Shown here piece after piece: positions 6,031-27,150 of a stretch of 35,491 nucleotides of DNA. Location: the NCBI RefSeq assembly GCF_025770725.1, contig NZ_JANZKZ010000007.1, positions 1 to 35,491 of the forward strand, in the 5' to 3' direction. Every line of letters begins with the position of its first letter. The stretch's first letter is position 1. The notes under the pieces were generated by a model that was not told where the DNA came from, did not search any database, and saw only the letters and a list, made by a program, of their open reading frames with translations. Position numbers and translations under genes: made by a program. The DNA comes from Sulfurospirillum oryzae (GTDB lineage: Bacteria > Campylobacterota > Campylobacteria > Campylobacterales > Sulfurospirillaceae).

Positions 6031-6690
6031 ATGGCACAGGTTATTGGATACATTAAATCACTCCAAAATGGTATCTTTTTCGCAAAAGATGCACACGGTC
6101 AGATCAGAGAGCTCAAAGCAGGCGATCAGGTCTTTAAAGATGAACTCGTCTATGGTGCAGAAAACAATCCTCAAAACGCACAAGTTATTATTGATGTCAC
6201 TTTAACCGATGCCAAAGACATCGCACTTTCAGGCGCTGAACAACTTTACACAGACCTTTCCGTTATTGGCGGATCCTTTGAAAAAGAAGATGCCGTTCTT
6301 TCAACTGATTCATTAGAAAACGCATGGAAACTCAGTACCAATACCGCTAATCCAGATATGCCATTAGATGCTACAGCTGCTGGTGTTGAAGCTCCTGCTG
6401 CTGGACAAAGTCCTGCAGATGGTGATCATCCAAACAGTGGGATCTTTTACGATAGAACAGGTGCCATTAGTGATGTCAGAACGGTTTTAGCTCAAGATAC
6501 TGTTAATGGTACTATTTCTCAAAATGTTACAAGAGTTGATACCCAAGATCTCAATGACCGCCCAGTGGTTGAGAATGTTACAAGAACTGAAATAGAAGCA
6601 CTTGATGGTTCAAATAAGATAAGTGGACAACTGGTAGCTTCTGATCCTGATGTGGGCGATACCCATACATTTTTTGCCGTTGAAGGTACA
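6031..6690 (+). repeat. 660-bp perfect direct repeat, copy 2 (5' end of adhesin 2)
   Basis: Identical to 2-661 (offset 6029). The base before the ATG is C in both copies. The match boundary is abrupt and lies inside a codon-aligned VCBS repeat, which fits recent gene conversion or duplication rather than selection on the protein alone. Confidence 0.95.
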
Positions 6691-12600: not shown

Positions 12601-15600
12601 ATTGATGCAAATACAGGTGTGATTACCGTAGCAGATGGCAGTAAACTTGACTATGAGAGTGCAACAAGTCATACCGTAACGGTTAAAGCAACCAGTAGTG
12701 ATGGCAGCTTTACATCTGGAGATTTTGTCATTAAAGTAACCAATATCAATGATAATCCAGTGCTACTTTCAGACATTGATAACGCTGTAAACACGGTTGC
12801 TGAAAATTCAGCAGCGGGCACTGTTGTGGGTGTTACCGCGTTTGGAACAGATGCAGATTCGGGTGCAACTATCGCTAAGTATGAATTGACCAACAATGCC
12901 GATGGACGCTTCACAATCGATGCAAAAACGGGTGTGATTACTGTTGCCGATGGAACTAAATTGAATTATGAGAGTGCAACAAGTCATACTGTAACGGTTA
13001 AAGCAACCAGCAGTGATGGCAGTTTTGCGTCTAAAGACTTTGCTATTGCAGTGACCAATGTCAATGAAGCACCAGATGCCGTTAATGACATGTATGTCAT
13101 CAATGGACTCAGAGGTCAATACTATGCGTACACTGAAGGTACAGATGGTTCTAACTTGACGAACATTGGACAAGTGGAAAAATTTGTTGCTACGCATAAT
13201 GCAGATGCAACGTTTGCTACAACATCGATTAATTATACATACATAGCATCAGGAAACTTGGGAGGTGATGGTAATTTGCAAAAGTTCTTAGGAACAGATG
13301 CTTCGACACTCTCTAATGATCCTAAAAACAGTTCAGATGCTATTATTAAACTGAGTGGTGCTCTTGATTTGGCAGCAGGTGATTATACCTTTAGAGTAAG
13401 ATCTGATGATGGTTTTAGCATTGTTATTGATGGTAAAACGGTTGCTTCAGACGATAGTATCCACTCTCCAAGAACAACTGATTATACGGTCTCTATCGCT
13501 GAGAGTGGGACCCATAATATCAGTATCCTCTATTGGGATCAAGGTGGTGAAGCTATTCTTAAAGTTGAGCTTAAAAATAATGCAACGGATTTGGATTTCC
13601 ATGTACTCAATGGTGCAAGTGATAAGCTCTCTAATTTGGTTACCAATGAAGATACACCTCTTACCATTGTACCAAGTACGCTATTAGGAAATGACAGTGA
13701 TGTCGATGGCGATAAATTAACGATTACGAGTGTTCAAGGCGATGCAGCAACGCATGGTACAGTTGCCATTGTCAATGGTAATGTTGTCTTTACTCCAGAG
13801 AAAGATTACAATGGTGATGCAGTCTTTAAGTACACCGTTAGTGATGGAAATGGAGGCACTGATACCGCTACCGTTACTTTACATGTAAATCCAGTCAATG
13901 ATGCACCTGTTGTTACTAATACACCTAGCGAACTTTTTGGTTCAGTTACTGAAGATGCACTTGTTACAACGGCTTCAGGACAACTTGGCGCAAGCGATGT
14001 TGATTCAGGAGCGACACAATCATGGAGCATTGTTGGTACACCAGATACAACGTATGGTTCTATTGGCATTGACTCAACAGGAAAATGGACATATACGTTA
14101 GATAATTCGCTCAGCACAACACAAGCACTTGCAGAGGGTGAAACTAAAACACTTAACTATACTGCTCGTGTGATGGATGATAAAGGCGCTTATGTTGACC
14201 AAACGATTACAGTGACTGTAAAAGGAACTAATGACGCACCAGTGATTTCTGGAACAGCGCTAGGTGACGCAGTAGAAGCGGGCGTTGTAACGATCACTGG
14301 CGTAACAACGCCAGTGGCAGCTGTTGTAGCAACAGGAACACTCAGCGCAAGTGATGTAGATAACGATGCGACACACACATGGTCAACAAATGCGACTTCA
14401 GCAGAAGGTACAAATTATGGTACATTTGCGATTGATGACAAAGGTGTATGGACATATACTACAGGTGATGCCGCTAACCAATTAGCAGAAGGTGAAACCA
14501 AAGTCGAAACTTTCAAAGTAACAGTGACAGATGATAAAGGTGCTATTGATACCCAAGATGTCACCATTACTATTCATGGTAACAACGATGCACCAGTGCT
14601 TAATTCGCCAAATGCGCTAGAGCTTAGTGTTCATGAAGAGAATGCAACGCTTAATATGTACACCAGCGGAAGTGTTAGCCTTCCAACTTTGGCAACAGAT
14701 GTTGACAATGGTGCAACATTGCATGTCAGTAAAGTCAATGGAAATAGTGTTGATGCAACAAATGGTTATGATACACCATTGACATTCTCGTATACTGACA
14801 AAGATGGTAATGTAGCAACAGTCGATGCGACAGTGCATATCGGACAAGATGGATCTTATAAAATTACTTACACTAGTAGCTTGGATGGAATTCCTGAGGG
14901 TGCGACAGCAACAGCAACTCTAAACTTTACCATTGTTGATGAACATGGCGCAGAGGCAAGTGCAAAACCAGTTACGGTAACCATTATTGGAAATAATGAT
15001 GCACCAGTAGCCGTTGCTGATGCACTCAGTGCCACAGAAGATACCCAGATTATCTTTAATGCATCTGATTTGTTAGGTAATGACACAGATGTTGATAGTG
15101 CTAGTACTTTACTGAAGATAGCAAGTGTCACGAGTGGCGATAATGGTACTGCAGTTCTTAATGCAGATGGTACGGTAACCTTTACACCAAATGCGAACTT
15201 TAGTGGTACAGCACACTTCACCTATACAACTACTGATGGGGTAGCGACTTCGAATAGTGCAACTGCGACTGTCAATATAGCTCCAGTAGCTGATGCTCCA
15301 ACGCTGTCATTGGTTCTGGATACAGCGACTCTTGTTGCCCCACCAAGTATTGCAACTGGTAATGGATTAACTCAAACGGTTTACAAAAACTTTGACAATA
15401 CTACTATAAATAGTGATACGCTTGAAACTTTGACCGATAGTCTAAAAGGTGGAGTGAGTACGACAACGACACAGCCATATCGCACAGGTGGTGATGGTAC
15501 CGATAATATTGCTGAAAGAAGTGTTGAAGTTACTAAGGGACTAATTTATCTTGAGAAAGGAACTACACTCGCTTTCTCAGGCTATTTCGATGATTCATTC

Positions 15601-16728
15601 TTAATTGAATTAGGTGGAAAAACACTTATTAGTACAACAGGAGACGCTTATGGAAGCTACAATACAGCCAATACAGCAACAACGACTGTTGGTAGTGGAA
15701 CGGTTACTAGTACGGGCGTATTTACGGCTTCTGTCACAGGTTATTATACGTTAGAGACTTATATCTATAACCATTATGGTGCAGGTGACTTATCAATCAA
15801 TGTAAGTGTCAATGGAGCAACAGCGGTTGCTTTAAATACAACAAACTTTAAGCTTTATACCAACATTGCAGCTATTGATGCACAACATGCGCAACATAGC
15901 AGTTTGATTATTACAGCGGGAAGTGATGGTGGCGTTTATCCGATTGCACATGCGGGAGAATACAGTTATGACTTAACCGTTCATGCTGCATTAACAGATG
16001 GTAGTGAGACATTAGATTCAGTTCATATCCTTACTTCTTCGTTGGGTGGAGCGACACTCAGTGGTGCTGGTGTGACATTAGTGGGAGATCACTATGAGAT
16101 TGCTGTAACAAATGACACAGATTCCCATGTGACATTAACTGCAAATCATGCGATGAGTACAAGCGATATCAATGCTATTTCTGGCAGTGTAACATCAACA
16201 GATGGTACATCGACTGCTACGACAACCGAAACAGTGCTCAATGAAGTTACCGGTGTTACTGGAACGGATGGAAATGATCTTATAACAGGGACAATTAGTA
16301 GTGAAGCGCTAAGTGGTGGAAAAGGTAATGACACACTTGTTTACGATAGTGCTGATAGTAAAATAGATGGCGGAGTAGGTACTGATACATTACTCTTTAC
16401 GAAAAATACTACGATTGATTTTAGTACACTTGATAGTAGTACTAATCCAATTAAAAATATTGAGGTGCTTGATTTAACCAAAGCTAATGTCACCATTACA
16501 AATCTTTCATTAAACGATGTTATTGATATGACAGATACTAGTCATACATTAACCATTCTTGGGGATGCAGCAGATAACGTAACGGTTGATAGTAGTACAT
16601 TAAATAAAACAGGCACATCAACAGAAGTGGTCAATGGTGCTTCACATACGTTTGATATTTATACGCATACAAATGCAAGTGATCCAACGGTTACCGTGAA
16701 AATCGAACAAGATATTCACCATAGCTAA
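6031..16728 (+). CDS. Giant LapA-like RTX adhesin 2 (type I secreted, retention module)
   Basis: Secreted adhesin of 3565 aa, nearly twice the size of its neighbour. Residues 1-220 are identical to adhesin 1, including the retention module and the TAAG LapG-type site (115-118). The body is a chain of VCBS-type repeats of about 100-130 aa. It is interrupted by a beta-rich domain (306-455), a second unrelated insert (about 1411-1587), cadherin-like repeats (2031-2355, two nearly identical in tandem), a PA14-like domain (2357-2520), a tandem-95 repeat, further VCBS-type repeats and a second PA14/GLEYA-like domain (about 3100-3290). It ends with only two or three RTX nonapeptides (3410-3450) and a C-terminal secretion signal sharing the GASHTFD motif with adhesin 1. 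RBS AAAGGA lies 10 bases upstream. Release is probably governed by the lapG and lapD genes just downstream. The type I exporter is not in view. Confidence 0.92.
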   Translation: MAQVIGYIKSLQNGIFFAKDAHGQIRELKAGDQVFKDELVYGAENNPQNAQVIIDVTLTDAKDIALSGAEQLYTDLSVIGGSFEKEDAVLSTDSLENAWKLSTNTANPDMPLDATAAGVEAPAAGQSPADGDHPNSGIFYDRTGAISDVRTVLAQDTVNGTISQNVTRVDTQDLNDRPVVENVTRTEIEALDGSNKISGQLVASDPDVGDTHTFFAVEGTLLLNGKPAPEGISFVLNQDGSYTVTGDFNHLAVGENAVVSFQYYAVDNGIDVGEPHNSLPATVTITVQGTNDQPVIGDINVNGGEESVVVDTTVESGWGTSYNIGGHAQSFYAAGDNLTEIGIEFSNNQHGSFRFDIFDAEGKIVYSSSAIEVNTGNSNEIVKIDLSGVTLNLKEKYTIDFDAISGDPKIVINNAQNSTDGVGYLYGEGADNTYTYFRDNWDHGMQFIYGGGKAIYETHDGSEGPTHTNDGNNVLTGALSVTDDDTTDTHTFRVVDNSVQVLDKSEAGITLEDVKVSITKGEDGTWQYKIDGDFSKLAAGETATVKFQYVADDGHGFDGKDGINESSVSAPKTITLTITGTNDQPVVSDVTLDSQNEATTGTNTFGGTLLVSDADAHDTHTFHVVENSLHVNSDFVKTPVLELNAQTGAYTVTGDFNALAAGEKATITFQYYAQDNSITQANGESNTSEIKTVTMTIIGTNDAPVISETSVIAGTATEAGNLDDGSVVPAVQTSGTLVATDVDHNAELAWSGSAKGTYGSFAIDPATGKWTYTVDDTVGSAADKLKEGDKVTEKFTVVVTDDQGATATQVVTITINGTNDAPVISGTASGDAAEAGVVTITGVTTPVDAVVATGTLSASDVDHDATHTWSTNATSAEGTNYGTFAIDDKGVWTYTTGDAANQLAEGETKVETFKVTVTDDKGAIDTQDVTITIHGNNDAPVLNSPNALNFSVQEDAANEVKVYNGDIGVKDLATDADNGATLYVGKVNGTLVGKDGFDQPISLSYIDKDGHSASIEAMLHVNQNGSYVISTNNDLNPIPAGVKATATLSFTIADEHGAESAPKTVNLAIEGANDAPVVDLHSDTYAMLYFENGASMPITSGTDISIGDVDSANIQSASIVLANAKAGDFLTYNGVTYDTIVDGKITVDIHQTAPLSAYQDMIKSVAYGSTSENPSAEDRHIEVTVNDGYDNSNTATSTIHVIPVNDAPTTTPVTLAPIAEDSGKHIITQADLLGNAQDAEGDKLTATDLEISAGKGELINNGDGTWTYTPAENDDTAVSFSYKVSDGIDSVNGSATLDITPVNDAPTTTPVALAAVVEDNSRLITQDELLTNAHDIEGDKLTATDLAITAGKGSLVNNGDGTWTYTPAENDDTAVSFSYKITDNGTTNGASDAKSITASATLDITPANDQPVVSDINANQHIKLDFDNTGFTVAETGNGYTAGHIPAGYGGIQWDSNVAVISVKEGANYYGYDNGSTSGASTAFNWSGAPSVGLVFSEAVTFNSTYLTAAVGASTQNVTFNGYLNGVLVDTTTVTINNQTPTLVELNWANIDKLVISDGTVSGQNWWSMDDFTYTLGTEKVVYESMGNLGAMLSDVTTTFTGNLATATDADTSDTHTYGISGTATSTNAHVKDLVVTIVDAVKGDYKVEGNFNALAAGEKAVVTFQYYAVDNSGADNAKSELKTVSLTVTGTNDQPVVENVALASQSEAATGTNTFAGTLVASDEDASDTHTFYAVKDSLHVDSPVALGTPTLVVNTDGTYSVVGDFNHLAQGQTATVTFQYYAVDSSGVGAGDAHNESATSDAKTVTMTITGTNNAAVITGDDIGSVKEDMTTPNLTDSGKLTSTDVDGHDNVFIAGKATPSGDALGSLSIDAQGNWTYTVDNSRVQYLAENEIKTETFTVKAEDGTTHEVVITIVGTNDAPVIAGTFSGNVVEDGQKTATGTLSISDVDTNHNPISFVDKAATVGDNGYGSFSLVNGTWTYTLNNNLASIQSLAEGEKVTDKITFTATDGSNQEVSVTITGTNDAPVFVVGNNQPSYSFNYNENSTTTTVLGTVHATDGDNGSKITYSIVSGNEAGYYAIDSVTGEIKLTTLGVNSFANDFEAATNSHSLVVGAYDGIVTTSINVTLNEQNVNDNPVVLSDANNAANTVAENSATGTVVGVTAFGTDADSGATITKYELTNNADGRFSIDANTGVITVADGSKLDYESATSHTVTVKATSSDGSFTSGDFVIKVTNINDNPVLLSDIDNAVNTVAENSAAGTVVGVTAFGTDADSGATIAKYELTNNADGRFTIDAKTGVITVADGTKLNYESATSHTVTVKATSSDGSFASKDFAIAVTNVNEAPDAVNDMYVINGLRGQYYAYTEGTDGSNLTNIGQVEKFVATHNADATFATTSINYTYIASGNLGGDGNLQKFLGTDASTLSNDPKNSSDAIIKLSGALDLAAGDYTFRVRSDDGFSIVIDGKTVASDDSIHSPRTTDYTVSIAESGTHNISILYWDQGGEAILKVELKNNATDLDFHVLNGASDKLSNLVTNEDTPLTIVPSTLLGNDSDVDGDKLTITSVQGDAATHGTVAIVNGNVVFTPEKDYNGDAVFKYTVSDGNGGTDTATVTLHVNPVNDAPVVTNTPSELFGSVTEDALVTTASGQLGASDVDSGATQSWSIVGTPDTTYGSIGIDSTGKWTYTLDNSLSTTQALAEGETKTLNYTARVMDDKGAYVDQTITVTVKGTNDAPVISGTALGDAVEAGVVTITGVTTPVAAVVATGTLSASDVDNDATHTWSTNATSAEGTNYGTFAIDDKGVWTYTTGDAANQLAEGETKVETFKVTVTDDKGAIDTQDVTITIHGNNDAPVLNSPNALELSVHEENATLNMYTSGSVSLPTLATDVDNGATLHVSKVNGNSVDATNGYDTPLTFSYTDKDGNVATVDATVHIGQDGSYKITYTSSLDGIPEGATATATLNFTIVDEHGAEASAKPVTVTIIGNNDAPVAVADALSATEDTQIIFNASDLLGNDTDVDSASTLLKIASVTSGDNGTAVLNADGTVTFTPNANFSGTAHFTYTTTDGVATSNSATATVNIAPVADAPTLSLVLDTATLVAPPSIATGNGLTQTVYKNFDNTTINSDTLETLTDSLKGGVSTTTTQPYRTGGDGTDNIAERSVEVTKGLIYLEKGTTLAFSGYFDDSFLIELGGKTLISTTGDAYGSYNTANTATTTVGSGTVTSTGVFTASVTGYYTLETYIYNHYGAGDLSINVSVNGATAVALNTTNFKLYTNIAAIDAQHAQHSSLIITAGSDGGVYPIAHAGEYSYDLTVHAALTDGSETLDSVHILTSSLGGATLSGAGVTLVGDHYEIAVTNDTDSHVTLTANHAMSTSDINAISGSVTSTDGTSTATTTETVLNEVTGVTGTDGNDLITGTISSEALSGGKGNDTLVYDSADSKIDGGVGTDTLLFTKNTTIDFSTLDSSTNPIKNIEVLDLTKANVTITNLSLNDVIDMTDTSHTLTILGDAADNVTVDSSTLNKTGTSTEVVNGASHTFDIYTHTNASDPTVTVKIEQDIHHS
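8618..8816 (+). repeat. 199-bp perfect direct repeat inside adhesin 2, copy 1
   Basis: Bases 8618-8816 match 14363-14561 exactly (offset 5745), flanked on both sides by sequence that is only slightly diverged. It is the core of one VCBS-type repeat. Recombination between the copies would remove about 5.7 kb in frame. Confidence 0.9.
12436..13065 (+). repeat. Tandem pair of 315-bp cadherin-like repeats in adhesin 2
   Basis: Two consecutive units of 105 residues start at 12436 and 12751 with the same GATAATCCAGTG. They share most of their sequence, including GVTAFGTDADSGAT and TSHTVTVKATSSDGSF. This is an in-frame tandem duplication within the coding sequence. Confidence 0.85.
14363..14561 (+). 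repeat. 199-bp perfect direct repeat inside adhesin 2, copy 2
   Basis: Second copy of 8618-8816. The flanks differ at scattered positions (for example C8617 against A14362 and T8817 against C14562). Confidence 0.9.
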
Positions 16729-16744
16729 TAAAAAACGTTATAAT
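16715..16744 (+). promoter_or_regulatory. Candidate lapG promoter abutting the start codon
   Basis: TTCACC (16715-16720), an 18-base spacer and a consensus TATAAT (16739-16744). The -10 box ends 5 bases before ATG 16750, so transcription would begin at or next to the start codon, giving a leaderless mRNA. The lapG start has no well-placed RBS (only GGG one base before the ATG), which fits. Read-through from the adhesin gene is also possible, since no terminator is seen between them. Confidence 0.4.
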
Positions 16745-16749
16745 AGGGC

Positions 16750-17397
16750 ATGAAAACAAACGTCCTTGCATTATGTTTTGGGGTGGCGGTACTTACTGTC
16801 ACCCTTTTTAGTACTGCCGAATTCGTTCTCTCTGGGATTTCTTTAGAGAAGGTTGAAAAAGAGTATGGGGTGTTTGCTAAAAAACGTGTGTTGGCACTTG
16901 TCGCTATGATGAATCGTGCTAAAGATGAAAGCGAACTTGAGAAGCTTGAAAAAGTCAATGATTTTTTCAATGCTACGCCTTATCATAGCGATAAATCGGT
17001 GTGGGGTGTCGATGACTACTGGGCGACACGGTTGGAGTTTATCGGGAAAGATAAAGGCGACTGTGAAGACTATGTTATTGCGAAGTATTTTACGCTCAAA
17101 GAACTGGGTGTTCCTGCTTCTAAGATGTATATGACCTATGCGAAGTCACTTAAATTTAACGTAGCCCACATGGTTCTTACGTACTATCCAACACCAAAAT
17201 CTATCCCCTTAGTTTTAGATAATTACAATTACAAAATCCTCCCTGCAAATGAACGTACCGATCTTGTCCCAATTTATAGTTTTAGCGGAGATGATCTGTT
17301 CAACGCCAAACAAGCGCAACTGGGAAAAATGCTTCCAGCCGTTACCAAACAGACACGTGCATGGGATGAGCTTAAAATAGAGAAAAAGGAAAAATAA
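16750..17397 (+). CDS. lapG: LapG-like periplasmic cysteine protease (transglutaminase-like, peptidase C93)
   Basis: Predicted periplasmic protease of 215 aa that cuts the retention modules of the upstream adhesins at their TAAG sites. An N-terminal hydrophobic signal segment (about 1-29) is followed by the catalytic triad: Cys105 in GDCEDYVIAKYF, His140 in AHMVLTYY and Asp157 in VLDNYN. The spacing (35 and 17 residues) is close to that of Pseudomonas LapG. The order adhesin-adhesin-lapG-lapD supports the assignment. Its stop codon overlaps the lapD start by one base (TAATG), so the two are probably translationally coupled. LapG enzymes of this family depend on calcium; calcium-binding residues were not verified here. 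Confidence 0.9.
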   Translation: MKTNVLALCFGVAVLTVTLFSTAEFVLSGISLEKVEKEYGVFAKKRVLALVAMMNRAKDESELEKLEKVNDFFNATPYHSDKSVWGVDDYWATRLEFIGKDKGDCEDYVIAKYFTLKELGVPASKMYMTYAKSLKFNVAHMVLTYYPTPKSIPLVLDNYNYKILPANERTDLVPIYSFSGDDLFNAKQAQLGKMLPAVTKQTRAWDELKIEKKEK

Positions 17398-19352
17398 TGA
17401 CTCTTTTTAAACAAATGGCAGTAATGCTCAGTCTTTTCTTAGGTGTAATTCTTGCCTGTGTTATGGTGTTAAACTTCAAAACTGCCACAGCGTTTGTTCA
17501 AGACCAGCTCTATACCAATGCTAAAAATACAGCGCATTCCCTTGGATTATCTCTTTCAAAAATTGTAGACCCTAACGATGTGGCGAGTATGGAGACGATG
17601 ATTAATGCTATCTTTGACAGTGGGTATTATGAGAGGATTGCTTTAATCGGCGTTGAGGGAAATCCTATCTATGTGAAAGAAACCGATGTTCTTGTGAGCG
17701 ATGTACCTCAGTGGTTCATTAACACGGTGACCATTCAAAATGCTTATGCGACGAGTGACATTATGATGGGGTGGAATCGTTTTGGTACGCTTGAAGTCAG
17801 CGGGCATACGGGAAACGCTTACAGACAGTTGTATAAAACATTGATTGATCTTGTTGAGACATTTGTTGTTATTGGTGTCGTTGTTTTAGGGTTGCTTTAC
17901 CTTTTGCTTACCCTTAGTCTTCAATCCATTAAACAGATTCGCGATCAGGCACGAGGTATTATTGAAAATCGTTTTATTATCGAGCCGAAAATGCCTTTTA
18001 CAACGGAGTTTCGTTCTGCAACAGTCGCTATGAATGCGATGGTTTCAAAAGTCAAAGATATTTTTGAGCGGGAAAATGAAACGCTCATGCAGTATCAAGA
18101 CTTGCTTTACAAAGATGCAGAGACAAAGCTTTATAACCGCCGTTATTTAGTCACCAAACTTCCTGAATACCTCCAAGGCGATACCACCTTGTCACAAGGT
18201 TTACATGTAATGCTAAGTGTCGATGAGTTGGATCGTTTTAAAAAAGAGTACGGCTATGAAAATTACATGAAGCTGATTAAAAAAGTTGCAGAAGGATTAT
18301 CAGGTTGTGCAGGGTTGTGCGAAAACACACTCTTTGCAAGACTTAATGAGAGCGACTTTTTCCTTTTAATGCCATTTCAAGATGATGTTGCACTCAAAAA
18401 ACACCTTGATACTATGCTTTTAGAACTACAACGTAGTATTGATGCGCAAGCCTTAGTCTATTTAGTCATTGGCGTAGGTATAGGGGTGTATAATGAACAT
18501 GACACGATTAAATCACTTCTTTCAAAAGCAGATTTAACAGTATCTCAAGCTAAACAAAATGGTAATTTTACATGCACGATGGCATTACAACAGCCTCACT
18601 CGTTAATTTTAAGTCGTGAAGAGTGGCGCAAAGAATTGGTGGATGGACTGAGCGAGTCACGTTTTGTATTTGCAACGCAAAATGTTATTCATGCCCAGGA
18701 CACTTCTTCGAGTATTGTTCATGAAGAGGTTTTTATTCGCCTCAAAGGAAGCGATGGCTTTACACACTCCGCTGGCTTTTTCCTCCCTATGGCAACTGTT
18801 TTAGGTTTGGCGGATGAAATTGATCGTTATATGATTCAAAAGATGCTTCAACGATTTATTGCGCAAGAGATGAACACGCCATTAGCACTCAACCTGAGTG
18901 CTGAATTTGTAGGACATTATGCCAATATTCAATGGCTTAAAGAGCAATTGGAAAAACTCTCTCCAACCCAACGTGCAATGCTATGGTTTGAGGTGAGCAA
19001 CACTATTGCCCTTCATAATCTTGAAGCAATTGTCTCTTTGAGCGCTCTTCTTAAAATGTTAGGATGCCGTTTTGGTATTGATAGCTTTGCCATTCCATCC
19101 GAAGGTGCTTATTATCTTCAAGCAATCAGACCTGATTATGTTAAATGTTCGGTTGTGTATCTTAAAGACATTATGCTTGATGCCAGCACAGGAAAAAGCC
19201 AAGAAAGCCTCAATAACATTGTGCGAAGCCTTGGCATTTCGATTATTGCAACAAACATTGAAGATGAGCAAGATCTTGCAACTTTAAAATATTTAGGCAT
19301 TGCTTATAGGCAAGGAAGATTGATAGCGCCTATTGAGTTATTAGCAGAGTAG
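17397..19352 (+). CDS. lapD: LapD-like c-di-GMP receptor, degenerate GGDEF-EAL
   Basis: Inner-membrane receptor of 651 aa that, by homology, binds c-di-GMP inside the cell and sequesters LapG in the periplasm. Order: TM1 (about 8-27), periplasmic LapD/MoxY-type domain containing IFDSGYY (72-78) and a GW...GxLEV segment with Trp126, the counterpart of the LapG-contacting Trp of Pseudomonas LapD, TM2 (about 152-173), HAMP-like linker, GGDEF domain and EAL domain. The GGDEF signature reads NESDF (317-321), and the EAL signature reads EVF (444-446). The DDFG segment of EAL enzymes is replaced by IDSF and the KID segment by KCS, so neither synthesis nor hydrolysis of c-di-GMP is expected. RBS AAGGA at 17386-17390. 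It is the last gene of the locus, before a strong terminator. Confidence 0.92.
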   Translation: MTLFKQMAVMLSLFLGVILACVMVLNFKTATAFVQDQLYTNAKNTAHSLGLSLSKIVDPNDVASMETMINAIFDSGYYERIALIGVEGNPIYVKETDVLVSDVPQWFINTVTIQNAYATSDIMMGWNRFGTLEVSGHTGNAYRQLYKTLIDLVETFVVIGVVVLGLLYLLLTLSLQSIKQIRDQARGIIENRFIIEPKMPFTTEFRSATVAMNAMVSKVKDIFERENETLMQYQDLLYKDAETKLYNRRYLVTKLPEYLQGDTTLSQGLHVMLSVDELDRFKKEYGYENYMKLIKKVAEGLSGCAGLCENTLFARLNESDFFLLMPFQDDVALKKHLDTMLLELQRSIDAQALVYLVIGVGIGVYNEHDTIKSLLSKADLTVSQAKQNGNFTCTMALQQPHSLILSREEWRKELVDGLSESRFVFATQNVIHAQDTSSSIVHEEVFIRLKGSDGFTHSAGFFLPMATVLGLADEIDRYMIQKMLQRFIAQEMNTPLALNLSAEFVGHYANIQWLKEQLEKLSPTQRAMLWFEVSNTIALHNLEAIVSLSALLKMLGCRFGIDSFAIPSEGAYYLQAIRPDYVKCSVVYLKDIMLDASTGKSQESLNNIVRSLGISIIATNIEDEQDLATLKYLGIAYRQGRLIAPIELLAE

Positions 19353-19358
19353 TAGTGA

Positions 19359-19411
19359 CTTATCGCACACGAAGTGTTAATTCATTTCGTGTGCGATAAG
19401 CGTTTATTTTT
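19359..19411 (+). terminator. Strong Rho-independent terminator after lapD
   Basis: A perfect 15-bp stem (19359-19373 with 19386-19400), a 12-base loop and the tail CGTTTATTTTT. It begins 6 bases after the lapD stop and sits 3 bases from the stop of the convergent - strand gene. It can probably stop transcription from both sides, though the - strand side lacks a U-run. Confidence 0.9.
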
Positions 19412-20342
19412 CGAGTTTGATAATGCGAAATGCCACAGCATTTTGGAAGATGAGTGGATAGTCGTATTTACACGACACTATGCCTTCACATGGTGCAATG
19501 ATGGTCTGTAAAAGTGAGCCATCCAGTGCGTTATATATGCGAGCAAGCGGTTGCCCATGCACCACGTGTTCACCAATGGGTGCAAGCGCGTCAAAAAGCC
19601 CTGCTGCGTTGCTTTTGACCACTTCCATATCCTCTGATGTGATAACATTACCCACCGCACCTTCAAAGGCTGCATAATCAATCATCCCTTTTTTAGACAA
19701 AAAGCGAATCAACGCATCGAAAACTTTGGTTGATTCAATTTTGCGAAGCGTGCCTTTTTTGCCTGAAATAATGGAAAAAGACTTTGCATTCCAGATTTGC
19801 CAGTTATAGTTTAATGAGACGGTATCGCTAGGTGTTGGCTCTTTGTAGTGAATGAAATCCAGCCCAAATGCTTGCGCTTCGTTGACATCCTCATAGCCCG
19901 TTTTGAGTACCTTAACGTAAGGAATACACTCAGCACGATCTTTTCTCGCTTCTAGGACTACGGCATACTCAAAGTGATTGATTTTTTCAAAAAGCTTCGC
20001 AGCAATGCGTTGGGTTGACTCTCCCTTGTCGTAGCCTGGAAACATGGCGTCGATGTCGGTGTTATCCATCGGCCAAAAGGATTTTCCCATATTAAACGAG
20101 TAGGGATTGACTGCAGGGACGACTAAAATCTCTCCTTTTATAAAAGCAGGATTTTCCAGTTCTTGTTGGCGCAAGAAGCGAACAAGTCTTGATGCGACCC
20201 AAAGCTGATCAATAGCGGTTCCTGTTAAAGGGCCTACGATCACACAGCTTGGTTTGCTATTGGGCGTTCCAAAGCGAAACCCTTTGATACGAAGTGGCTC
20301 ACGACTGAGTGAGGTGATTTCGCATAAAATCTCTTCTCTCAT
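19404..20342 (-). CDS. AstE/aspartoacylase-like protein lacking zinc and catalytic residues (pseudoenzyme)
   Basis: A 312-aa paralogue of the preceding gene with the same layout: a carboxypeptidase-like domain followed by a C-terminal beta-rich domain. Every key position is changed. The HxxE zinc motif (His42, Glu45 in the paralogue) reads TGTAI here, the third zinc His becomes Glu131 in VLEARKDR, the Asn-Arg substrate pair becomes Asp-Ala (DIDAMFPG) and the catalytic Glu region reads SIISGKKG. The frame is open and the FPG and C-terminal motifs are kept, so this looks like a maintained non-catalytic partner, not a decayed gene. It overlaps the upstream gene by 4 bases (ATGA) and is the last gene of the five-gene operon. 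A regulatory or substrate-binding role with the active paralogue is an inference. Confidence 0.8.
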   Translation of the reverse strand: MREEILCEITSLSREPLRIKGFRFGTPNSKPSCVIVGPLTGTAIDQLWVASRLVRFLRQQELENPAFIKGEILVVPAVNPYSFNMGKSFWPMDNTDIDAMFPGYDKGESTQRIAAKLFEKINHFEYAVVLEARKDRAECIPYVKVLKTGYEDVNEAQAFGLDFIHYKEPTPSDTVSLNYNWQIWNAKSFSIISGKKGTLRKIESTKVFDALIRFLSKKGMIDYAAFEGAVGNVITSEDMEVVKSNAAGLFDALAPIGEHVVHGQPLARIYNALDGSLLQTIIAPCEGIVSCKYDYPLIFQNAVAFRIIKLEK

Positions 20343-21286
20343 TCATTCACCTCGCATGGATTTTCTAAGATGCGTGCAAGAAGTGAGCCTTCATACACAA
20401 CGGGGTATTCGCGGATGGTAAACAAAAGCCCATCACAAGGGCTTAGTAAACTCTCTTTAATAACACCCTCGAGTGGATCGATGATCTCGCCTAGTTTTTC
20501 ACCTTTTTTGACCATCACATTATGTTCAAGAGTTGGTATAAAAATACCGGCATCCGAGGCATTGATAAAATGTACCGATGAATTTTGTGTCGAAACAGAG
20601 GTTTTACAGGGATGCATTGGCTCATCAATAATGCCAGCGTATGCCATAAAGTTTAAAATACCCTTAGCAAGATTTTCACCATACTCTTTGGTAATGCGCA
20701 TACCAACCCCCATTTCAACAACAAGGGTTTTCGTACCGATTGAGTTTAGTGCGTGTGAGAATGTAGACTCCAAAACGGTGACAGCATCGTGTACCCAGAT
20801 AAAATCAATTCCCAACTTTTCAGCCAAAGGTACAAGATCATGCGCGTTTGATCGGCTGATGCGAATTTGAGGAAGCTCTTTTAGAAAAATATTGCTCGCA
20901 TGAATGTCGATGGCAAAGTCGCTTCCTTTGACCGTTTCCACAATAGCATTGGCAACTTGTGCCGGTAGAAAGTCTGCGGTGTGACCGGGAAATGAACGGT
21001 TTAGATCGACATCGTAAAAAGGAAAATTGCGGCTGATACTGTCGATACCCATAGGGTTCATCGAAGGGTAAATATCGACAATACCTTTAATCTTTTTGGG
21101 GTTTTCTCGAAGCCATTTAATGAGCAAATAGCAGACATACTGCCCCTCGAGCTCATCGCCATGCGTGCCTGTAACGATGGAAATCCGTTTGGTTGATTTG
21201 GTGATGTCCGGTGGATTGAAACGGTTTCGTTTGAGTTTCAACGTCTCTTCCACAGGGAGCTTGACACTAAAAACCTCTTCAATCAT
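20339..21286 (-). CDS. AstE/aspartoacylase-family zinc hydrolase, catalytically intact
   Basis: A 315-aa member of the succinylglutamate desuccinylase/aspartoacylase family (M14-like zinc fold). The zinc ligands His42 and Glu45 in TGTHGDELEG and His129 in AIDIHAS are present, as are the Asn96-Arg97 substrate pair (DLNRSFPG) and the general base Glu191 (VVEMG). The C-terminal third is a beta-rich domain typical of AstE-like proteins. Start and stop both overlap neighbours by 4 bases (ATGA), which indicates translational coupling. AstE itself belongs to arginine catabolism, but no other ast genes are present. The context with ATP-grasp, alpha-E and transglutaminase genes points instead to hydrolysis of an amide or acyl-amino-acid bond in a peptide-like product; the substrate is unknown. 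Confidence 0.88.
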   Translation of the reverse strand: MIEEVFSVKLPVEETLKLKRNRFNPPDITKSTKRISIVTGTHGDELEGQYVCYLLIKWLRENPKKIKGIVDIYPSMNPMGIDSISRNFPFYDVDLNRSFPGHTADFLPAQVANAIVETVKGSDFAIDIHASNIFLKELPQIRISRSNAHDLVPLAEKLGIDFIWVHDAVTVLESTFSHALNSIGTKTLVVEMGVGMRITKEYGENLAKGILNFMAYAGIIDEPMHPCKTSVSTQNSSVHFINASDAGIFIPTLEHNVMVKKGEKLGEIIDPLEGVIKESLLSPCDGLLFTIREYPVVYEGSLLARILENPCEVNE

Positions 21287-22068
21287 TGCTCATCCCTTGC
21301 CACAGTAACGTTTACATGTAAGTTTTGTTGGCTCTTTCCTATAAAGACACCACGGTTGAGACGACAGTCCATAAAGTCGCGTCCATGCGCTATTTTGATG
21401 TAAGGTTGATGTTCTAACATGATCCCATTGGTTGGGTCAAACCCTCTCCAGTATCCATCAATATAAGCTTCTACCCACGCATGGCTTTCACCTTCACCAT
21501 CAATAAATCCAGCAACATAACGCGCAGGGATGTTGTTCAGTCTTAAAAGGGTGATGAGCAAATGACTAAAGTCTTGACAGACGCCTTGGTGGCGCAAAAG
21601 TAGGGCGTCGGCATCACAGGTTGTGGTCGAAACACCTGCTAAATATTCAAAGTTTTGAAAGATGGTTTGGTTAAGCATCTTCGCTAAACTCAGTGGCGAT
21701 TGTGGAAGCATTAAAGTCTCTAAATACTCTTTTGCCATAGTTGAAAAAGGCGTCAGCATCGTTGGATGGAGGTACAAAGAGGCATTCTCGTTATCTTTGT
21801 ATTGGTAGCTTCCATGAAAGACCACACTCCCTGTGAGCATGGCTTCAAAATTGCGGTGAAATTTTTCAATCGTACCAAAAATAAGATCGTTTCCAAAGCC
21901 ATCTTTGGTTAAAGAAAATGGCACATCATTGTTGATGCGAAGCTCCCAATCAAGAAGTGTTTGCACCCCATTGCTGAGTGGAAGCATACGCAAGCAAAAG
22001 GCATGTTTGCGTACGGCTTCTTTAAAGTTAAGCGTAAATGCGTATGAAAAATTAACTTTCATGGACAT
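21283..22068 (-). CDS. Transglutaminase-like cysteine protein with N-terminal beta domain
   Basis: A 261-aa protein with an N-terminal bacterial transglutaminase-associated domain (about 1-110) and a transglutaminase-like core (about 125-220). The catalytic triad is intact: Cys164 in GVCQDFSH, His196 in ESHAWVEAY and Asp211 in GFDPTNG. No signal peptide is seen, so it is probably cytoplasmic. Proteins of this kind (COG1305) are regular partners of the alpha-E and circularly permuted ATP-grasp proteins encoded just upstream and are predicted to cleave or transfer peptide or isopeptide bonds. The start at 22068 overlaps the alpha-E stop by 17 bases; a second ATG lies at 22062. The first is preferred because GGAA lies at a plausible distance upstream. 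Confidence 0.87.
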   Translation of the reverse strand: MSMKVNFSYAFTLNFKEAVRKHAFCLRMLPLSNGVQTLLDWELRINNDVPFSLTKDGFGNDLIFGTIEKFHRNFEAMLTGSVVFHGSYQYKDNENASLYLHPTMLTPFSTMAKEYLETLMLPQSPLSLAKMLNQTIFQNFEYLAGVSTTTCDADALLLRHQGVCQDFSHLLITLLRLNNIPARYVAGFIDGEGESHAWVEAYIDGYWRGFDPTNGIMLEHQPYIKIAHGRDFMDCRLNRGVFIGKSQQNLHVNVTVARDEQ

Positions 22069-22714
22069 AGGCGAGCGTTCCGTAAATTGAATTTATTTTT
22101 TCTAATGTTTTATATTTGTTGCTCGATGAAAGAGCGATATGTTTATGGTTTGGACGAATTTTTTCCGCAATAATGTTGAGCTTTTCCACATCTAAAAGCG
22201 CGGCTTCAATGCTATCGTATATGCGAATATTCAAATCCATTCTCTCTACAACCTTTCCAAATTGAATCAAAGGCGAGTCTTTGGCTTCAACGAGCGAAAG
22301 CTCTAAATTTCCCCAGATAGCATCAAGCTCTTTGAGGGTTGACTCAAGCCAAAAAACTGAAACGGTACGCTCCTCTTTTGCTGTTTGATACGCAAGGTAA
22401 AGGGCATTTATGCGGCTAAACATACGATTTGAGAGGTGTGAACGTGTCAAAATCGCATTTTCTCTCGCACAATTAATAACAGTAATAAGACTTGCGTACT
22501 CGACATCAAAAACACTTTGGCGCAAAAATGCTTGTGAAGAGTCATAGTTTAGCTCAATACCCAATCTAGCATAGAAATTTTTGGCATCATCAAAATCAAC
22601 GTCGAGTATTTTATCAAAAAGTTGGATAACAAGACGAGTCATACTCTCCGCTCTTTGGATGTAGCGACCCATCCAATAAAGTTGTTCCGCACTTTGAGGT
22701 GATATGAGAATCAT
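22052..22714 (-). CDS. Alpha-E domain protein (DUF403, COG2307)
   Basis: A 220-aa, almost entirely alpha-helical protein beginning MILISPQSAEQLYWMGRYIQRAE once the start is corrected; the LYWMGRYxxRAE segment is the family hallmark. The start is placed at ATG 22714, not at the upstream ATG 22735, because AAAGGAG sits just before it and its ATGA overlaps the stop of the ATP-grasp gene by 4 bases. The biochemical role is not known; the family is almost always encoded beside circularly permuted ATP-grasp and transglutaminase-like genes and is thought to act with them. The gene is shorter than the roughly 310-aa members found in many proteobacteria. Confidence 0.88.
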   Translation of the reverse strand: MILISPQSAEQLYWMGRYIQRAESMTRLVIQLFDKILDVDFDDAKNFYARLGIELNYDSSQAFLRQSVFDVEYASLITVINCARENAILTRSHLSNRMFSRINALYLAYQTAKEERTVSVFWLESTLKELDAIWGNLELSLVEAKDSPLIQFGKVVERMDLNIRIYDSIEAALLDVEKLNIIAEKIRPNHKHIALSSSNKYKTLEKINSIYGTLAYVHES

Positions 22715-24084
22715 CGCTTCTCCTTTAAAATCCATGTGTCTTTAAAACCGCCACCTTGTGAGGAGTTGACGATGTAACTGGTTGGATCCATGGCAAAACG
22801 TGTGAGCCCTCCTGGCCAGACGAAGATGTCTTCGCCATACAGTGAGAACATTCTAAGGTCTGCTTTGCGTGGTGAGAAGGCACCTGTTTCATCCAAGCAT
22901 TCGATGTCATAAAACTCGATAATCTCTTGTGCAATGAAACGACGCGGTTCTGCACAAATGGCATCTTTGAGTTTTTCACGTTCACTTTTGGTCAGAAGTG
23001 AGCCAAAGACAACGCCATACCCACCCGCTTCTGCAACGTCTTTAATGACAAGATTTCGCATGTTTTGCAAAATGTGATTGCGATCTTTCTCAAAAAAGGC
23101 CAAGTAGGTCGGTGCATTTTGCAAGATTGGATCTTCTTTGAGGTAATAACGAATCATATCAGGTACAAAATAGTAGATGCCTTTATCGTCCGCGATGCCA
23201 TTTCCGATGCTGTTCATCAAAGCGACATTGCCAGAACGGTATACTTGCGTGATGTTGGGAACGCCGATCAGCGAGTCAGGATTGAACTCAATAGGATCGA
23301 GCGCGTCATCATCGAGTCTTCGATACACAGAACCCACACGTGCTTTTTTACCGCTGTAGGTTTTGAGGTAGAGTTTGTCTTTTTCAACCACCAAGTCATC
23401 ACCTGTTGCCAAGATAGCACCGCTCTCTTTTGCAAGATAGGAGTGCTCGTAAAAGGCGGAGTTATAACGTCCAGGTGTTAAGATAACGTTGATACCGCCC
23501 GTATTGACATGCTCCATCGCTGCAGCTAAACGGCTTGGGTAGTCTTGAACACTTTGAATCGGAAGCTTTTCAAAAAACTCTGGGAACACTTTGCGCGTTA
23601 GCATGCGTAAAGAGAGTGGGTAACTCACACCACTTGGAACGCGAAGGTTGTCTTCCAGCACAACCCAGCCATCTCCGACACTGTTTTTAACAAGGTCGAT
23701 ACCGCTGATGTGTACACGTATGTTCTTAGCCACAGGCGTGTTGGCAAAAGCGGGAAGATAGGCTTTTGAGGAAAAGACAAATTCGCTAGGAATGATGCCG
23801 TCTTTAAGAATCTTTTGCGCTCCATAAATGTCTTCTAAAAAGAGATTGAGTGCGTGGATGCGTTGTTGTATTCCTTTTTCAAGGTAGGAAAACTCCCCAT
23901 GTGAGACAATGCGAGGAATGATGTCAAAAGGAAATTTACGCTCTATGAAAGCGTTGTTTTTAAAAAGGTTGAAGTTGATCGCTTCGGTATTCATGTAGGC
24001 GAGCAACTCTTGGACGCGTTTCTTGTCGATGGTGTTTAAGATGCCTTTAAAAGCATCATAGAGTGGACTTTCTGACTCTATCAT
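22711..24084 (-). CDS. Circularly permuted ATP-grasp ligase (DUF404/DUF407, COG2308)
   Basis: A 457-aa predicted ATP-dependent amide-bond-forming ligase. Family motifs are clear: FPFDIIPRIV near the N-terminus, VLEDNLRVPSGVSYPL, LTPGRYNSAFYEH, YRRLDDDALDP, and GNGIADDKGIYYFVPDMIRYYL. The start is taken as ATG 24084, with AAAGG 8 bases upstream and an N-terminus (YDAFKGIL) that matches the family; an in-frame GTG at 24138 would add 18 residues but has less support. It is the first gene of the operon, and its stop overlaps the alpha-E start. In the work that defined these families (Iyer and colleagues, amidoligases) they are predicted to make peptide-like metabolites or tags; substrate and product are unknown. 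Confidence 0.9.
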   Translation of the reverse strand: MIESESPLYDAFKGILNTIDKKRVQELLAYMNTEAINFNLFKNNAFIERKFPFDIIPRIVSHGEFSYLEKGIQQRIHALNLFLEDIYGAQKILKDGIIPSEFVFSSKAYLPAFANTPVAKNIRVHISGIDLVKNSVGDGWVVLEDNLRVPSGVSYPLSLRMLTRKVFPEFFEKLPIQSVQDYPSRLAAAMEHVNTGGINVILTPGRYNSAFYEHSYLAKESGAILATGDDLVVEKDKLYLKTYSGKKARVGSVYRRLDDDALDPIEFNPDSLIGVPNITQVYRSGNVALMNSIGNGIADDKGIYYFVPDMIRYYLKEDPILQNAPTYLAFFEKDRNHILQNMRNLVIKDVAEAGGYGVVFGSLLTKSEREKLKDAICAEPRRFIAQEIIEFYDIECLDETGAFSPRKADLRMFSLYGEDIFVWPGGLTRFAMDPTSYIVNSSQGGGFKDTWILKEKR

Positions 24085-24345: not shown

Positions 24346-25707
24346 TTATAAAGACCACAGATAGGCAAAAATCAACCCTTCAATGAGGAAAAGAAGACAA
24401 AACAGACTGTTCCATTTAAGCGAGACTTCTATATGGGTAACACCTAAATATTTTGCGCTCAACAACGACATACCCGCAAACGGTGAAACGATAAACGAGA
24501 TGGAAGCTGATAGAAGCAAAATCAATGCAATGGAAACAGGGGGAAGTGGCAGTGAAACCGCCAATAAGATTTTGCCAAAGATAATCGCAAGGACCAAAGG
24601 GTGAATACCACAGATGGAGATAAGTATAAAAAGAAGAGGAATGACAATGATGGAAAAGATGCCAAGGTGGTTGACGCTCTCTTGCAACACGGGTTGGATG
24701 TAGCCCAAAATTCCACTATGATCGACAGCACCCGCAAAGAGCCCCACCGCAATAAAAAAAACTGAAAAATCAGTCGCTTGCATAATGCCGTTTCCCCAGT
24801 ACTCCTTCAACATGGCTTTTAGTTCGGGCTGTTTGAGATAATAAGCAATCCAAATGGTTGAGACGATGAGCCCTGCTAGTAAAATCCTTCCCGTCCCTGT
24901 GGCAATAGAAAACTTTTCAAAGAGTGCTATACACACGATAAGGCTGATAATCACAAGAATAATATGAGCTGTCTTTTGAGGTGCATTTTTGGCGATGCTT
25001 GAAGAGGTGTGTAGCGTTTCAGACATCGAAACGATGGGTTTGTTTAGGCGTGTAAAGTGCTCTAAAGCATACGAAGTCAACAATCCCATAGCGCTTAAAA
25101 AAAGACCTGGCAAAAACAGTTCTGACCACGAAACATGCGTCACTTGCATTACTAAAAGAATGATAATCGCCCCTGGCGCCCAAAAGAGGGCAAGGGTGTA
25201 CCCTCGCATAATAGCGGTTGCAAAAAAGCGCTGGTACTCAGAAACATTGTTTTTAAGGGCTTTGTTAAAGAGCGAAACCATCACGGGAACCGTTCCAAAG
25301 AGCAAAAAGCTTGCAAAAAGATTGGTGACAAACATAGCAAAAAGGTAAAGAGAACTCTCTTTTTTAAAAAGCTTTTTGAGCCAATACTCAATGGTGTCGT
25401 TGTAGTGTCCAACTTCAATAGGAATAGAAAAGAGTTGCATCACCACGATGATCGCGATAATGTTGGTCATAGAGGTGAATGACTGCAGCCAAATGGTAAA
25501 AGGTAGCTCAAAATAGACGAGTAGGGCAATGCCTAACGTAAAAAAGAATAGAGTGATGTTGCGAAACCCTTTTTTTTGCATCGATAGACCAAAAATAAGC
25601 AGAAGAAGTGTAAAAAATGTTAAGAGCTCAAGATTGATTGGCGTAAAGAGTTTGATGATATGTAAGAGTGTAAGTGCCACAATAGCAATTTTACAGAGGC
25701 TTTTCAT
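24346..25707 (-). CDS. Multi-pass membrane permease, ion-transporter-superfamily-like
   Basis: A 453-aa, very hydrophobic protein with about 11-12 membrane segments, a central charged loop (about 225-245) and two similar halves. Family identity was not recognised with certainty; the length, the pseudo-symmetric layout and the small-residue stretches (for example APGAIIILL and ICGIHPLVLAIIFGKIL) fit anion or dicarboxylate carriers of the ion transporter superfamily. The start is ATG 25707, preceded by GGAA; an in-frame TTG at 25725 is rejected because a good -10 box (TACAAT, 25739-25734) places the transcript start only a few bases from it. It is transcribed alone and divergently from yjjP. 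Substrate unknown. Confidence 0.75.
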   Translation of the reverse strand: MKSLCKIAIVALTLLHIIKLFTPINLELLTFFTLLLLIFGLSMQKKGFRNITLFFFTLGIALLVYFELPFTIWLQSFTSMTNIIAIIVVMQLFSIPIEVGHYNDTIEYWLKKLFKKESSLYLFAMFVTNLFASFLLFGTVPVMVSLFNKALKNNVSEYQRFFATAIMRGYTLALFWAPGAIIILLVMQVTHVSWSELFLPGLFLSAMGLLTSYALEHFTRLNKPIVSMSETLHTSSSIAKNAPQKTAHIILVIISLIVCIALFEKFSIATGTGRILLAGLIVSTIWIAYYLKQPELKAMLKEYWGNGIMQATDFSVFFIAVGLFAGAVDHSGILGYIQPVLQESVNHLGIFSIIVIPLLFILISICGIHPLVLAIIFGKILLAVSLPLPPVSIALILLLSASISFIVSPFAGMSLLSAKYLGVTHIEVSLKWNSLFCLLFLIEGLIFAYLWSL

Positions 25708-25733
25708 TCTATTTCCAAAATTCAAATTGCGAT

Positions 25734-25897: not shown

Positions 25898-26683
25898 ATG
25901 TTAAAAGGATTTCTCACGATCTCGTATGAAGAACAAACCAGAATTACTACTGTTGTTGTCCGCGTTGCTGTCATGCTCCTTGAATACGGAGCAGAGAGCC
26001 GTTTGATCGAGCAGTTATCGTCTCGTTTGGGCGTGGCGCTTGGGTGTACTTCTATTGAAATTTCGCTTATTCCCTCTGCCATTGTTTTAACGACACTCAT
26101 TGGCGACTCTTCGGTTACGACCACAAGACGAGCGCATGAACAGCCGATTAATATGTCCATTGTTCATCAAATCGTCACTATTTGTATTGCTGCGGAACAA
26201 AGCCCTCGTGACATTATGATGGTTGAACGTTCACTTGCAAACATTCACGCCAACCCGTATCCAGGATGGTTTATTGTTCCCATGATTGGGCTTTCATGTG
26301 CTGCTTTTAGCCATTTACAAGGCGCTGATTGGCCTGGATTTTGGATCACTTTTTTAGCAGCTTCTGTGGGTATGATGGTACGCAGGGCACTCTCCAGCCG
26401 TAATTACTCTTTGCTGATTGTCTTTGCGTTTACCGCGTTTGTGTGTACTTTGATCGCCAGTCTTGCTTTTTATCATGATCTTAGCTCCACCGGACGTGTT
26501 GTTCTCTCTTCCAGCGTTTTATTGCTTGTTCCGGGTTTACCCTATATCAATTCGATGCTCGATGCCTTTAAAGGGTATATCAGTATGGGATGGGGGCGTT
26601 GGACGCAAGCGACATTGCTAACACTTATGTCTTCCCTTGGTATTATGCTCGCCATGGGGCTTTTGGATATTAAAGGATGGTAA
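25898..26683 (+). CDS. yjjP: YjjP-like large subunit of a ThrE-type exporter (DUF1212)
   Basis: A 261-aa protein matching E. coli YjjP (256 aa) along its length: a cytoplasmic N-terminal part with LLEYGAESRLIEQLSSRLG (about 27-45) and SAIVLTT, then five or so membrane segments, including LVPGLPYINSMLDAFKGYIS. E. coli YjjP and YjjB form a split ThrE-family exporter implicated in succinate efflux; whether this pair moves succinate, another dicarboxylate or an amino acid cannot be told from sequence. No RBS is visible before ATG 25898, and the sequence AAAGGA lies just inside the gene with no canonical start after it. The homology to YjjP begins at about residue 11, which supports this start. 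Its TAA overlaps the yjjB ATG by one base. Confidence 0.87.
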   Translation: MLKGFLTISYEEQTRITTVVVRVAVMLLEYGAESRLIEQLSSRLGVALGCTSIEISLIPSAIVLTTLIGDSSVTTTRRAHEQPINMSIVHQIVTICIAAEQSPRDIMMVERSLANIHANPYPGWFIVPMIGLSCAAFSHLQGADWPGFWITFLAASVGMMVRRALSSRNYSLLIVFAFTAFVCTLIASLAFYHDLSSTGRVVLSSSVLLLVPGLPYINSMLDAFKGYISMGWGRWTQATLLTLMSSLGIMLAMGLLDIKGW

Positions 26684-27150
26684 TGATGGTATGGTTTACA
26701 CTTCTTCTCAATGCTATGTGGGCGGCGATTCCTGCTGTGGGATTTGGGATGATTTTTAACGTCCCTCGCTCAACACTACCTTTGTGTGCCGTAGGTGGCG
26801 CCTTTACGTATGGACTTAGAGATGTCTTGATGCACAACCACTTTTCGATTGAACTTTCAACGTTTATTGCCGCAACGGCTATTGGTATTATCGGTGTTTT
26901 CTGGTCACGTCGCTATGTGATGCCCAGACCTGTTTACACGGTTCCTTCCATCATTCCGATGATTCCAGGTACGTATGCGTATGAGATGATGATAAGCCTT
27001 GTCTCGATGAATTCAGATGGTGTAACAGATGCCTTACTTTCAAGCTTTATCCAAAATGGCTTGCATGCGATCAGTATTTTATTTGCCATCGCTTTTGGAC
27101 TAGTTCTTCCTTCGATGTATTACACCAAGCGTAAAAAGCCTATCATTTAG
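26683..27150 (+). CDS. yjjB: YjjB-like small subunit of a ThrE-type exporter (DUF3815)
   Basis: A 155-aa membrane protein matching E. coli YjjB (157 aa). It has AAIPAVGFGMIFNVP near the N-terminus, STFIAA and IGVFWSR in the middle, and the family motif VPSIIPMIPGTYAY, within about five membrane segments. It supplies the second half of the ThrE fold that YjjP begins. The start is placed at ATG 26683, overlapping the yjjP stop (TAATG) with AAGGA 5 bases upstream; ATGs at 26677 and 26686 are alternatives. The stop lies only 3 bases from the stop of the convergent nicO gene, with no terminator between them. Confidence 0.86.
   Translation: MMVWFTLLLNAMWAAIPAVGFGMIFNVPRSTLPLCAVGGAFTYGLRDVLMHNHFSIELSTFIAATAIGIIGVFWSRRYVMPRPVYTVPSIIPMIPGTYAYEMMISLVSMNSDGVTDALLSSFIQNGLHAISILFAIAFGLVLPSMYYTKRKKPII

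Follow-up and report, generated by a model that had tools for sequence, protein, structure and literature searches.

Which hydrolase completes an amidoligase operon when Anbu, the proteasome-type protease that closes the classical version, is missing? The question is raised by contig NZ_JANZKZ010000007.1 of Sulfurospirillum oryzae (Campylobacterota; assembly GCF_025770725.1), of which positions 1 to 35,491 of the forward strand are here called the window. At 19404-24084 the minus strand carries five successive genes, all overlapping their neighbours, for a circularly permuted (CP) ATP-grasp amidoligase, an alpha-E protein, a transglutaminase-like protein (TG) and two AstE-type proteins, one intact and one dead. 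The operon is a variant of the known Anbu-type amidoligase arrangement with another hydrolase, and the AstE pair sits where the classical operon has Anbu.

An AstE pair in the slot of Anbu

The Anbu operon consists of genes for a CP ATP-grasp, an alpha-E protein, a transglutaminase-like protein and Anbu (Iyer et al. 2009, in those parts of the work that are relayed by PMC6376114 and PMC5666114). A Klebsiella plasmid carries these three families with a 'proteasome-type protease' (Anbu) in fourth place, in line with the published accounts of Anbu. The window operon shares with this system the three leading families, their order, the tight coupling and the position of hydrolase-fold genes at the end. 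The two differ in that an N-terminal nucleophile (Ntn)-fold Anbu closes the classical operon, whereas an active/dead pair of AstE fold fills the fourth and fifth slots here, and in that alpha-E has 309 amino acids there and 220 here.

A preliminary description of this DNA had put the pair in Anbu's place, and both gene order and searches agree with it. It had named two findings that would tell against a distinct system, rarity of the five genes together in related genomes and an Anbu gene elsewhere in this genome; both were looked for and neither turned up. The PF00227 profile, which does detect the Klebsiella plasmid Anbu, finds a single proteasome-family gene in the window genome (L059), HslV-sized and adjoining a 441-amino-acid HslU-sized gene, and a direct Anbu query of this genome gives no match. 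Across 26 Campylobacterota genomes (the window's and 25 related ones) an Anbu query returns nothing significant, and there is exactly one PF00227 match in 25 and none in one; the matching frames span 177-245 amino acids and are mostly HslV-sized, the hslU neighbour having been checked in the window genome only. Weak PF00227 matches occur in three of 150 Lachnospiraceae relatives, and co-occurrence of an AstE pair with Anbu was not seen in the genomes sampled. Since Anbu was tested for and not found, the window operon is not itself a member of the Anbu operons.

A phylogenetic tree groups the AstE-operon ATP-grasps in a single clade (support 100) and leaves the two sampled ATP-grasps of Anbu operons outside it. 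This separate clade provisionally suggests, from few Anbu-type sequences, that Anbu was replaced once. The operon would resemble the Anbu operon in its working, with a different hydrolase. A literature search, whose coverage did not extend to Iyer et al. 2009, found no description of an ATP-grasp/alpha-E/TG operon with AstE; the novelty of the AstE-pair arrangement in the literature is uncertain.

The five genes and their junctions

The five overlapping minus-strand genes, their families and the three ATGA junctions are all present as first described (Table 1), and the first four products each score above their curated Pfam cut-off. The open reading frame (ORF) of the ATP-grasp extends as far as GTG 24138, and ATG 24084, the start implied by the preliminary description, is taken as the best one because 17 of 24 relatives have ORFs of 453-457 amino acids. 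The protein matches CP_ATPgrasp_2 (PF14403) at 454.6 bits, and its closest solved structure is 3n6x (E 3.8e-118). The short alpha-E protein covers positions 4-172 of the 294 in the Alpha-E model, whereas the Anbu-type protein covers 1-294. Its predicted structure is all-helical, with a predicted local distance difference test score (pLDDT) of 90.9; a fold search of the PDB gives no Foldseek match at E <= 0.001, and the best VIA-align match, a helical bundle at Z 9.6, is within the noise level for helical models. The TG retains an intact Cys164-His196-Asp211 triad, of which the cysteine is present in 55 of 56 sequences and the histidine and aspartate in all 56. The alpha-E/TG junction is an overlap of 11 or 17 bases.

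Table 1. Genes and stop/start overlaps of the AstE-pair operon
Feature	Position	Strand	Details
CP ATP-grasp amidoligase, CP_ATPgrasp type 2	22711..24084	-	457 amino acids from ATG 24084
Short alpha-E protein	22052..22714	-	220 amino acids from ATG 22714; PF04168 77.2 bits, cut-off 20.8
Transglutaminase-like protein (TG)	21283..22068	-	Transglut_core 68.5 bits (Pfam)
Intact AstE/DoeB-type zinc hydrolase	20339..21286	-	315 amino acids; AstE_AspA_cat (PF24827) 75.9 bits, cut-off 25
Dead AstE paralogue (conserved pseudoenzyme)	19404..20342	-	312 amino acids; PF24827 21.4 bits, under cut-off 25
ATGA overlap, ATP-grasp to alpha-E	22711..22714	-	
ATGA overlap, TG to AstE	21283..21286	-	
ATGA overlap, AstE to dead AstE	20339..20342	-	

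One active and one dead AstE

The intact AstE of the window retains its zinc ligands H42, E45 and H129, the N96-R97 pair and E191. Among 102 intact sequences H42, E45, N96, H129 and E191 are invariant, and R97 is present in 101. In all 98 dead sequences, by contrast, the zinc histidines H42 and H129 and the catalytic glutamate E191 have been replaced, with E45 and R97 kept in about half; the residue states of the two sets thus bear out the earlier assignment of one intact and one dead copy. The predicted fold of the dead copy is complete. Its model (pLDDT 89.7) aligns over the whole chain with DoeB (6twm; Z 31.1, root-mean-square deviation 2.8, 300 residues aligned) and with other chains of AstE fold, and its top Foldseek match is CphZ (PDB 8ein/8eip) at 16% identity; by sequence, the intact AstE matches CphZ weakly (E 0.0026).

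Purifying selection acts on the dead AstE gene about as strongly as on the neighbouring genes, with non-synonymous divergence (dN) of 0.017-0.053 and synonymous divergence (dS) of 0.70-1.87 between the window and its three nearest relatives. Of the 21 invariant columns in 48 dead sequences, 14 lie within residues 79-118, where the substrate loop used to be. Outside the C-terminal end, no part of the single-chain model is less confident (blocks at pLDDT 61-64). An invariant segment of low confidence would fit a loop that becomes ordered upon binding of a partner or ligand.

In a tree with DoeB-like outgroups, intact and dead AstE form two sister clades with support of 99 each, and the branching within the two is broadly similar; one old duplication therefore accounts for the pair. 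Because of long outgroup branches the root is less certain than the two clades. At shorter range, the AstE of S. cavolei (L081) is 79-80% identical to that of the window.

A conserved five-gene unit

The association of the five genes was followed in two samples. This ATP-grasp family is present in 26 of 298 Campylobacterota genomes, and in 21 of the 24 loci with a short ATP-grasp the AstE pair comes directly after alpha-E, whether TG is there or not. Scanning 84,980 species genomes gave at least 547 AstE relatives; the best 80, which were analysed, comprise 27 from Campylobacterota (several being genomes of the 298-genome sample) and 53 from elsewhere: Lachnospiraceae and other Clostridia, Bacteroidales, Spirochaetota, one Methanomethylophilaceae archaeon and one Aquificota metagenome-assembled genome (MAG), where errors in MAG binning may have put individual genomes, possibly the archaeon too, under the wrong taxon. 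The active/dead pair is present in 77 of these 80; of the three exceptions two (L063 and L077) are cut by a contig end and the third is a lone Aquificota AstE. The complete order ATP-grasp, alpha-E, TG, AstE, dead AstE is found in 44 of the 53 loci outside Campylobacterota, the remainder being mostly truncated contigs. The five-gene set is thus a conserved unit and not a chance association, and its carriers range from sediments to animal guts. AstE and dead AstE may form a hetero-oligomer; the observations that bear on this are their gene linkage in 77 of 80 loci and their shared inheritance.

No consistent sixth gene accompanies the operon; a FUSC-HAD gene and a C26 gene are minority neighbours. 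A TG::AstE 'fusion' in L098 was rejected, as its ORF runs across a stretch of N. Among the plasmid matches listed, there were only generic DoeB/AstE relatives at <30% identity and no AstE orthologues.

A possible amide-bond cycle

It is possible rather than probable that the operon encodes an amide-bond cycle, in which the ligase makes a bond, AstE cleaves it and dead AstE binds. The CP ATP-grasp, helped by the short alpha-E, would spend ATP to couple a carboxylate with an amine, and the TG-like Cys-His-Asp protein would provide or process one substrate. The intact AstE would cleave the amide of the ligase product, probably a small molecule or short isopeptide. Dead AstE would partner AstE and may still bind substrate, product or a partner by way of its old substrate loop, now rebuilt. 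The pair would fill the functional slot of Anbu, and the earlier suggestion that the system 'builds and trims' an amide-linked product is plausible.

The behaviour of TG speaks for this cycle. Campylobacterota carry a second operon, with a large TG of ~1120 amino acids, an ATP-grasp::alpha-E fusion of 830 amino acids and a small TG of ~300 amino acids (L035, L041, L048 and others), which is usually convergent with the AstE operon and often adjacent to it; the same arrangement is found on a Granulicella plasmid. It has the ligase, alpha-E and TG families in common with the AstE operon, but neither AstE nor Anbu, and its ATP-grasp branches at a distance from the clade of the AstE operons. Ten of the 21 pair-bearing Campylobacterota loci have no TG in the AstE operon. 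The second operon is present in all ten genomes without an operon TG and is not shown in 5 of the 11 with one (Fisher p 0.035); in a second Campylobacterota set it is present in 22 of 23 without TG and in 1 of 4 with it (p 0.005), the p-values being indicative only, since the two sets overlap and the lineages are not independent. The 22 include L080, counted on the strength of a second operon that is cut short on the same contig; the search itself gave no match there. TG tracks need: where the AstE operon lacks it, a second TG-bearing operon is present.

The chemistry of relatives bears on the substrate. The best-matching characterised family of the intact AstE is DoeB/EutE (N-acetyl-diaminobutyrate deacetylase), which has the same fold and the same zinc and catalytic residues; however, AstE scores 51.9 bits against the TIGR02994 equivalog cut-off of 402.7 and does not reach it, and the gene setting differs, with no dead twin alongside doeB in the plasmid locus viewed. 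CphZ, an isoaspartyl (cyanophycin) dipeptide hydrolase, is a small-isopeptide hydrolase and a close structure match to dead AstE. DoeB and CphZ, the nearest characterised AstE relatives, hydrolyse small amides, which speaks for the cycle. The cycle is also favoured because other AstE relatives adjoin amidoligases. In an Aquificota MAG (L099:250-2258) a lone AstE without a dead partner lies directly downstream of a GCS2-family ligase gene, and a Phaeobacter plasmid (L171:1518-3909) has a tight row of RimB-like, RimK and a more distant AstE relative. This triad resembles the window operon in that an AstE-type hydrolase gene abuts a glutamate-ligase gene; it differs in that RimK belongs to another ATP-grasp family, a RimB-type peptidase stands in for alpha-E and TG, and dead AstE is lacking.

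RimK glutamylates a ribosomal protein (PMC12239564), and tagging has been put forward for the Anbu operon, which has the same ligase/alpha-E/TG core (PMC6376114); the ligase might thus add an amide-linked tag to proteins or peptides, to be stripped by the AstE pair. Such a role is unlikely in view of the small molecules on which DoeB and CphZ act, and no tag gene or small conserved ORF is recognised in the operon. The C26 and transporter neighbours, too, are better suited to small molecules. A C26 (gamma-glutamyl hydrolase-family) gene lies <=318 bp away on the same strand in 7 of the 53 loci outside Campylobacterota (3 upstream, 4 downstream), two of these being short ORFs and two of the loci near-identical, and a FUSC/ArAE-HAD membrane fusion is encoded directly downstream in 5 of the 53 (L094:11852-13144, L137, L123, L112 and L126).

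The FUSC fusion, together with the deacetylation of an intermediate by DoeB, could instead point to a biosynthetic route in which AstE strips a ligase-made intermediate of a protecting acyl or amino-acyl group and the end product is exported. This is unlikely: the FUSC linkage is sparse, consistent tailoring enzymes are absent, and the same gene set occurs in very different hosts. For the amide-bond cycle, one more clue comes from Burkholderia, where an ATP-grasp/alpha-E/TG cluster is NtrC/sigma54 dependent and drops strongly in an ntrC mutant (PMC5491218). With the C26 and rimK neighbourhoods and with DoeB and CphZ, it hints weakly at nitrogen and glutamyl-type amides, and a glutamyl-type amide may be offered as a weak guess at the substrate.

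Pairs without a ligase

The AstE pair also occurs on its own. In 150 Lachnospiraceae genomes the dead-AstE profile matches in 41 (~36 at or near full length), and alpha-E is found in only 15, all among the 41; with few exceptions the ATP-grasp is distributed likewise. Twenty pair loci away from the ligase (L178-L197) were examined. Fifteen of their genomes have no PF14403 match, one (G385) has short or weak matches only, and four (G330, G331, G336 and G364) carry a ligase operon elsewhere. Both histidines and the catalytic glutamate are absent from the dead copy in 20 of 20, and the active partner is changed at H42 in three, E45 in one and R97 in six, making 7 of the 20 loci altogether. A PurL-like gene is in the stretch of 13 of the 20, usually directly downstream.

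The better-conserved partner switches with the ligase. In freestanding pairs mean pairwise identity is 48.8% for the active and 58.0% for the dead protein, with the dead one ahead in 183 of 190 comparisons; for ligase operons outside Campylobacterota the figures are 60.7% and 51.7% (dead higher in 1 of 55), and in those of Campylobacterota 65.5% and 54.3%. The comparisons share sequences and are not independent, yet their direction is clear. The switch favours an independent role for the dead subunit, with the ligase keeping the active partner catalytic, and it also speaks for the amide-bond cycle.

The pair might, on this evidence, mainly sense a ligand or regulate nitrogen/glutamine metabolism, the dead subunit sensing and the ligase, where present, making the signal. 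The adjacency to the gene for PurL, a glutamine-using enzyme, the better conservation of the freestanding dead subunit beside an active one altered at catalytic or substrate residues, and the NtrC regulation of the Burkholderia cluster all fit such a role. It is nevertheless an unlikely explanation, on a par with the biosynthetic route: the position beside PurL may be peculiar to a lineage, and catalysis matters in ligase operons, because every intact AstE there keeps its zinc ligands and catalytic glutamate.

Several observations weigh against the amide-bond cycle. At least 15 Lachnospiraceae genomes have the pair but no ligase, which means that AstE does not depend everywhere on the product of this ligase. 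Alpha-E, TG and Anbu have no known enzymatic activity, for a related ATP-grasp only the release of orthophosphate from ATP has been demonstrated, and pull-down of Anbu-operon proteins gave no complex among them (all PMC6376114). The C26 link, confined to seven loci of which two have short ORFs, counts on the same side, as does a search with one simple pattern that found no sigma54 (-24/-12) site upstream of the window operon or related operons. The preliminary description had gone further, suggesting a fixed stoichiometry and a complex; with TG so often missing and the pair able to stand without the ligase, a single five-protein complex is not supported in that form.

Neighbouring genes

Just upstream of the operon and on the same strand, 24346-25725 encodes a 459-amino-acid membrane protein with no Pfam or NCBIfam match, a relative of which (65-91% identity) is upstream in eight Sulfurospirillum-like loci. 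Beyond it, 25898-27150 holds a two-gene ThrE-type threonine/serine exporter, with ORFs of 261 and 157 amino acids that are similarly placed in related loci. On the other side, convergent with the operon, 6031-19352 contains a repetitive adhesin-like ORF of 3565 amino acids followed by a LapG-like C93 protease and a LapD-like GGDEF/EAL protein. Two related loci (L046:11814-12635 and L047:12049-12870) have an extra alpha-E-like gene upstream of the operon, for a protein of 273 amino acids with 30% identity to the window alpha-E.

Implications

A bolder generalisation is that the AstE pair is a widespread two-protein module whose dead subunit binds a ligand and outlasts the ligase, whose active subunit is kept catalytic by the ligase, and whose replacement of Anbu implies a small-amide cycle. 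This is doubtful; if true, Anbu operons would run a small-amide cycle and not protein degradation. Because the fold that stands in for Anbu is that of hydrolases with known small-amide chemistry, such operons can be approached directly by experiment. A pseudo-metallohydrolase is conserved in about a quarter of the sampled Lachnospiraceae and in several other phyla, gut bacteria included, and the ligase-dependent switch of the conserved partner is a testable clue to what this dead subunit does.

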